From: Streptomyces sp. MS191
GTDB lineage: Bacteria > Actinomycetota > Actinomycetes > Streptomycetales > Streptomycetaceae
NCBI RefSeq assembly: GCF_008042125.1
Contig: NZ_RDBI01000054.1
Span: forward strand, 117,747 to 163,696
Direction: 5' to 3'
Length of the DNA: 45,950 nt
Part shown: positions 35,003-45,950 of the stretch, piece by piece
Layout of the letters: each line of letters starts with the position of its first letter
Numbering within the stretch: position 1 is the stretch's first letter
Made by a program: the position numbers and the translations under genes
The notes under the pieces: generated by a model
What the model was told of the DNA's origin: nothing
Database searches by the model: none
What the model saw: the letters and a program-made list of their open reading frames with translations, nothing else

Positions 35003-35665
35003 GTGAACAAGGCGCAGCTCGTAGAAGCGATTGCCGACAAGCTCGGCGGCCGTCAGCAGGCCGCGGACGCTGTCGACGCGGTGCTGGACGCGATCGTGCG
35101 TGCCGTGGTCGGCGGGGACCGGGTCTCGGTCACCGGCTTCGGTTCGTTCGAGAAGGTCGACCGTCCGGCCCGGTACGCCCGCAACCCGCAGACGGGTGAG
35201 CGCGTGCGGGTCAAGAAGACCTCCGTTCCGCGCTTCCGTGCGGGTCAGGGCTTCAAGGACCTGGTCAGCGGCTCGAAGAAGCTGCCCAAGGGTGGCGAGG
35301 TCTCCGTCAAGAAGGCGCCCAAGGGCAGCCTCACCGGCGGCGCTTCCGCGACCGTGAAGAAGGCCGCCGCGAAGAAGGCCACCACCGCGAAGAAGGCCGC
35401 CGCGAAGAAGGCGACCCCCGCGAAGAAGGCCGCGGTCAAGAAGACCACCGCCGCGAAGAAGGTCGCCGTCAAGAAGACCACGACGGCGAAGAAGACCACG
35501 GCCGCCGCCAAGAAGGCGACCCCCGCGAAGAAGACCACGGCCACGGCCAAGAAGACCGTCGCCAAGAAGACCGCGCCGGCGAAGAAGGCCACGGCGAAGA
35601 AGGCGCCCGCCAAGAAGACCACGGCGCGCAAGACCACCGCCAAGAAGACCGCCGCCAAGAAGTAA
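35003..35665 (+). CDS. hupS: HU-type nucleoid protein with Lys/Ala-rich tail (HupS)
   Basis: A 220-aa histone-like protein. The N-terminal ~93 residues are a normal HU domain (MNKAQLVEAIADKLGG, TGFGSFEKVDRPARYARNP, VPRFRAGQGFKDLV). From ~105 onward the protein is a run of KKA/AKK/PAKK repeats, resembling eukaryotic linker histone H1. This two-part form is the Streptomyces HupS type, which compacts spore nucleoids. GTG start with gaagggga at 34991-34998. The repetitive tail is prone to length change between strains. Confidence 0.94.
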   Translation: MNKAQLVEAIADKLGGRQQAADAVDAVLDAIVRAVVGGDRVSVTGFGSFEKVDRPARYARNPQTGERVRVKKTSVPRFRAGQGFKDLVSGSKKLPKGGEVSVKKAPKGSLTGGASATVKKAAAKKATTAKKAAAKKATPAKKAAVKKTTAAKKVAVKKTTTAKKTTAAAKKATPAKKTTATAKKTVAKKTAPAKKATAKKAPAKKTTARKTTAKKTAAKK

Positions 35666-45207: not shown

Positions 45208-45950
45208 ATGGAGCCCGTGCCCGCGCTCGACGAACCACTGAAGAAGCTGCTCGGCGCCGCCACCGCGAAGGTGATGGCCGAGCACCTCGACCTGCACACG
45301 GTCGGGGACCTGCTCCACCACTACCCCCGGCGCTACGCCGAGCGCGGGGAGCTGACCGCGCTCGGCGAACTGCCCCTGGACGAGCACGTCACGGTGGTCG
45401 CCCAGGTCGCCGACGCCCGCGTGCTCACCTTCAACAAGGGCGGACGGGGCACGGGCCAGCGGCTGGAGGTGACCATCACCGACGGCAGCGGCCGGATGCA
45501 GCTGGTCTTCTGGGCACGGGCCAGCGGCTGGAGGTGACCATCACCGACGGCAGCGGCCGGATGCAGCTGGTCTTCTTCGGCCGCGCGGTCTTCTTCCACC
45601 AGAAGGAGCTGCTGCCCGGGCGGCGCGGGATGTTCGCCGGCAAGGTCGGCCTCTTCAACCGCAAGCTCCAGCTCTCCCACCCCGAGTACAAGCTCCTCGA
45701 CGCCGACACCAGCGACGAGACGGTCAAGGCCTTCGCGAGCGAACTGCTGCCGATCTACCCGGCCGTCAAGCAGCTGGAGTCCTGGACGATCGAGCAGTCC
45801 GTCTCCATCGCCCTGGACTCCATGGAGGCCACCGGCTGGGCCGGACTCGTCGACCCGCTGCCGACCGCCCTGCGCGAGGGCCGCGGCCTCACCGACCTCC
45901 CCGACGCCCTCCGGAAGGTCCACCGCCCGCACACCAAGGCGGACATCGCG
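45208..45950 (+). pseudogene. recG: ATP-dependent DNA helicase RecG, 5' part, frame broken by a 65-bp duplication
   Basis: The reading starts at ATG 45208 (or GTG 45217): EPLKKLLGAATAKVMAEHL, VGDLLHHYPRRYAERGEL, HVTVVAQVADARVL and the wedge-domain RLEVTITDGSGRMQLVF are clear RecG N-terminal features. After GRMQLVF the frame runs into WARASGWR and stops at 45537 (109 aa). From 45513 another frame repeats GTGQRLEVTITDGSGRMQLV and continues FFGRAVFFHQKELLPGRRG and on, open to the end of the window. A tandem 65-bp duplication (45447-45576) causes this. Removing one copy restores a normal RecG. RecG remodels stalled forks and Holliday junctions. The window ends inside the gene, before the helicase motifs. 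An assembly or sequencing error is a serious alternative. Confidence 0.85.
45447..45576. repeat. Exact 65-bp tandem duplication in recG
   Basis: Positions 45447-45511 and 45512-45576 are identical and directly adjacent. The unit starts gggcacgggccagcgg and ends cagctggtcttct. 65 is not a multiple of three, so the duplication shifts the frame. Confidence 0.97.

Follow-up and report, generated by a model that had tools for sequence, protein, structure and literature searches.

A 65-bp exact tandem double that splits recG in a Streptomyces draft genome is probably a chimeric-read or assembly artifact

Is the recG gene of this Streptomyces isolate broken, or is it broken only in the draft assembly that represents it? 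The stretch of DNA analyzed here (45,950 nucleotides, hereafter the window) corresponds to C212:117747-163696, where C212 is a 388-kb scaffold in a 7.79-Mb draft of 261 contigs. Near the end of the window, the first-pass annotation reported two exact, adjacent 65-bp units (45447-45576) that disrupt recG, with the correct frame resuming in the second, and offered three readings, namely a reversible switch, a recent loss of function, or an assembly artifact. Direct sequence and translation bear out the duplication and the frame break. Evidence gathered across the draft favors the artifact, which we consider the probable explanation with good confidence, over both the switch and the recent loss.

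The split recG frame and its counterparts in relatives

The two units are identical and directly adjacent (Table 1), and 100 shuffled sequences contained no match like this double, giving a chance expectation of nil. Because 65 is not divisible by 3 (65 mod 3 = 2), the RecG frame breaks at the repeat: translation from the ATG ends after 109 codons at TGA 45535-45537, with a short foreign tail, and the correct frame picks up in unit 2 and stays open through to the gene end. Matched to the RecG models (NF008167 / TIGR00643), the two fragments form consecutive, overlapping pieces, as expected of an ordinary Streptomyces recG, and the Wedge/OB, DEAD, Helicase_C, and RecG C-terminal domains are all found, in pieces over two frames. 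Unlike ordinary Streptomyces recG, however, the frame is broken by an exact double, and in this draft only; a single uninterrupted recG reading frame is absent from this assembly, and the break is the repeat. We found no second recG copy in the genome: the next-best RecG match, C197:1929624, covers the helicase region only and is probably mfd, a known relative of RecG. Compared with the closest relative sampled (G025), recG downstream of the junction has a dN/dS of 0.16, indicating constraint, and a gene evolving in this way past the junction does not look like an old pseudogene. A DNA hairpin was considered as a trigger of the double and rejected, the local folding being not unusual (z = -1.5).

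Table 1. Features of the recG locus (window coordinates) and exact tandem doubles at gaps or contig ends (contig coordinates, start position).
Feature	Coordinates	Strand	Basis or note
recG, part within the window; the gene runs past the window end to C212:165271	45208..45950	+	genome's only recG, frame split by repeat
Upstream RecG frame (109 aa), from the ATG to a premature TGA; final residues foreign	45208..45537	+	translation
65-bp unit 1	45447..45511	+	exact repeat
Second 65-bp unit, identical to the first, in which the true RecG frame resumes	45512..45576	+	exact repeat
GTGA, in-frame GTG (RecG valine 88) overlapping the premature stop TGA; could serve for re-initiation only with a real repeat	45534..45537	+	direct reading
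Last base of the window, immediately ahead of a single N within recG (C212:163697)	45950..45950	.	sequence
Double at gap or contig end	C212:1		54 bp
Double at gap or contig end	C212:194775		42 bp
Double at gap or contig end	C212:276808		39 bp
Double at gap or contig end	C224:11008		34 bp
Double at gap or contig end	C197:737930		101 bp

Comparison with relatives, which the first-pass annotation had proposed, revealed a single unit in every relative examined, with no copy-number variation at the site, showing that the duplication is not widespread. A degenerate pattern for the junction had 0 matches in 392 other Streptomyces genomes, the recG loci of 52 relatives were free of exact tandem repeats near 65 bp, and a plasmid collection search returned no match. 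One open frame connects the N-terminal and post-OB motifs in 50 of the 52 loci, the other two (L039 and L057) being left unjudged for frame as they are without the motif used. In the closest relative, RecG is intact at 751 aa and carries one unit.

These observations bear directly on the proposed reversible switch, by which recG would be turned off and on through gain and loss of one unit under selection. Contraction of a 65-bp direct repeat is possible in principle, and phase-variable tandem repeats known from M. tuberculosis promoters, with a similar unit size (54-56 bp at cysG), vary in copy number (PMC12817950). Those repeats, however, lie in promoters and vary over many isolates, whereas the recG double lies inside a gene of a single draft. 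A selected switch should recur, yet the repeat is in no relative by either the junction pattern or the locus comparison. The doubled run is moreover exactly 2 x 65 bp, and since the match run is thus one period long the junction is without microhomology, which likewise lends the switch no support; we regard a selected switch as exceedingly improbable.

Equally far-fetched is a real duplication whose truncated RecG is still made by re-initiation at the GTGA overlap. The overlap coincides with the point where the upstream frame ends, but its GTG is an ordinary valine codon inside the wedge-domain OB fold, a product starting at GTG 45534 would be without the start of the wedge/OB domain, and the frame shift accounts for the overlap with no need for selection.

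Exact doubles elsewhere in the draft

Exact doubles were sought in 1.54 of the 7.79 Mb, comprising C212 and C224 in full plus 0.8 Mb of C197, with stretches from three near-complete relatives as a smaller control of 1.2 Mb. Counting isolated exact tandem doubles of 30 bp or more, we found 16 in the draft (10.4/Mb) and 2 in the relatives, a significant excess in the draft (P = 0.003). The length of 11 of the 16 is not divisible by 3, and junction homology is 0-3 bp in almost all of them. Five doubles (Table 1) lie at most 5 bp from a 100-N gap or contig end, a zone that makes up 0.04% of positions (P about 4e-14). Doubled lengths range from 34 to 299 bp, which rules out a fixed k-mer overlap as their cause. 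The longest, an exact 299-bp double, occupies C197:250548-251145, with the nearest 100-N gap 3.2 kb away. A tandem repeat of another kind occurs within the window at 35351-35662, degenerate, with a period of about 15-39 bp and rich in AAG/GCC codons (a lysine-alanine tail of KKA/AKK type); it resembles the C-terminal, lysine-rich tails seen in actinobacterial HU-type proteins and is presumably a natural repeat.

C212 carries another conserved gene with this kind of break. An exact 50-bp double at C212:113133-113235 (L063:14633-14735), about 4.5 kb before the window start, interrupts the urease alpha gene, ureC: the urease alpha match follows one frame ahead of the double and another after it, and the closest relative aligns over it with a single 50-bp gap, i.e., with one unit. 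That two conserved genes are broken alike on one 388-kb scaffold indicates a common technical cause. For the other doubles, stop-to-stop frames were uninformative because this genome is GC-rich and has long open frames everywhere, and third-position GC worked better. By this measure the frame shifts at the doubles C224:298937 and C197:399351, where a gene break is not demonstrable, the relatives aligning piecewise or the region seeming variable or intergenic.

The recG double itself is not at a gap or join, its nearest 100-N gap being 23 kb away, and this position speaks for a genuine, very recent duplication, produced by end joining or by template switching during replication, that inactivated recG in the isolate sequenced. 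So do the low rate at which exact doubles occur in the near-complete relatives and the tolerance of recG loss in the bacteria studied, exemplified by a D. radiodurans recG deletion that is viable with slower growth (PMC7889586). Nevertheless, an artifact double need not lie at a gap, because similar internal doubles such as that of ureC exist; junction homology is 5-6 bp in the two doubles of the relatives and nil in the recG double; and the excess of doubles at assembly gaps, together with the broken ureC, weighs against a real event. We therefore consider a genuine duplication unlikely. A real duplication would amount to an ordinary loss-of-function mutation, revertible by slippage like any direct tandem repeat, and no evolved switch.

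Inverted and direct copies at gap edges

Along C212 there are 15 joins, each exactly 100 N long, and 22 short runs of N; the draft also has scattered single Ns. One of the latter lies 374 bp from the recG double; single Ns behave as ambiguous bases and not as joins, one N corresponding to one base where the closest relative aligns. At C212:331157 and C212:374971, two-N runs are centered in short perfect inverted repeats (e.g., CAGCTGCGG NN CCGCAGCTG), and the closest relative is likewise near-palindromic there, so that these Ns apparently reflect base-call failure at hairpin tips.

The edges of the gaps are abnormal in a systematic manner. An inverted copy of sequence within 1.5 kb was found at 26 of 118 gap edges (22%) against 35 in about 9000 random positions (0.4%; Fisher P about 4e-34), and a direct copy within the same distance at 8 of 118 against 21 in about 9000 (Fisher P about 2e-9). 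When aligned to the closest relative, 10 of 17 alignable gap edges were opposite in orientation to their own inner flank, compared with 0 of 222 random positions. Examples on C212 include the edges at 101324, 186682, 187864, 232562, 281728, and 322550, and judging from their alignment, these edges of 100-N joins are best read as fold-back chimeric contig ends. These copies, together with the inverted orientation, identify the contig ends of the draft as often fold-back or tandem-joined sequence.

One could take everything at face value, with the recG break, the doubles, and the fold-back joins all real and the isolate a naturally recG-null mutator strain that no longer restrains fork reversal and template switching. 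This is very unlikely, because the joins cluster at assembly gaps.

Known library artifacts offer a partial parallel. MDA chimeras are about 85% inverted and 15% direct, with junctions that usually have 2-21 nt of homology (PMC1855051), and chimeric fold-back and direct-join artifacts of libraries also appear in PMC6218980 and PMC12870357. The gap edges of this draft resemble MDA-type artifacts in mixing many inverted with fewer direct joins of nearby sequence. They differ in junction homology, mostly 0-3 bp in the doubles of the draft, and given the longer homology usual at MDA junctions we do not claim MDA as the source.

Origin of the double and meaning for the draft

Taken together, the draft has joins at its gap edges that are systematically abnormal, more exact doubles than the relatives, and a second broken gene. 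The artifact reading of the recG double is favored because doubles are over-represented and clustered at contig ends, inverted fold-backs occur there, and ureC is broken likewise, and the identical recG copies, their junction without microhomology, its absence from the other Streptomyces sampled, and the constraint on the rest of the gene add to this; as the recG double lies away from any 100-N gap, the case is indirect, and we infer that this internal double shares its origin with those at gap edges. False copies most likely entered the draft through chimeric sequencing molecules, either template-switched or fold-back, or through unmerged overlapping contig ends. At contig ends they would appear as exact tandem doubles and inverted fold-backs, and within contigs some direct-orientation copies would have been merged into the consensus, as most likely in recG (65 bp) and probably in ureC (50 bp). 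The second 65-bp unit is most likely absent from the chromosome, and the real gene is probably a normal, uninterrupted recG.

Accepted as assembled, this locus would enter the annotation as a lost fork-rescue helicase. Instead, tandem and inverted copies that are probably false recur systematically in this draft, and its broken genes and odd repeats are untrustworthy without the reads. Comparing exact doubles and inverted ends at gap edges with random sites provides a fast screen for other draft genomes.
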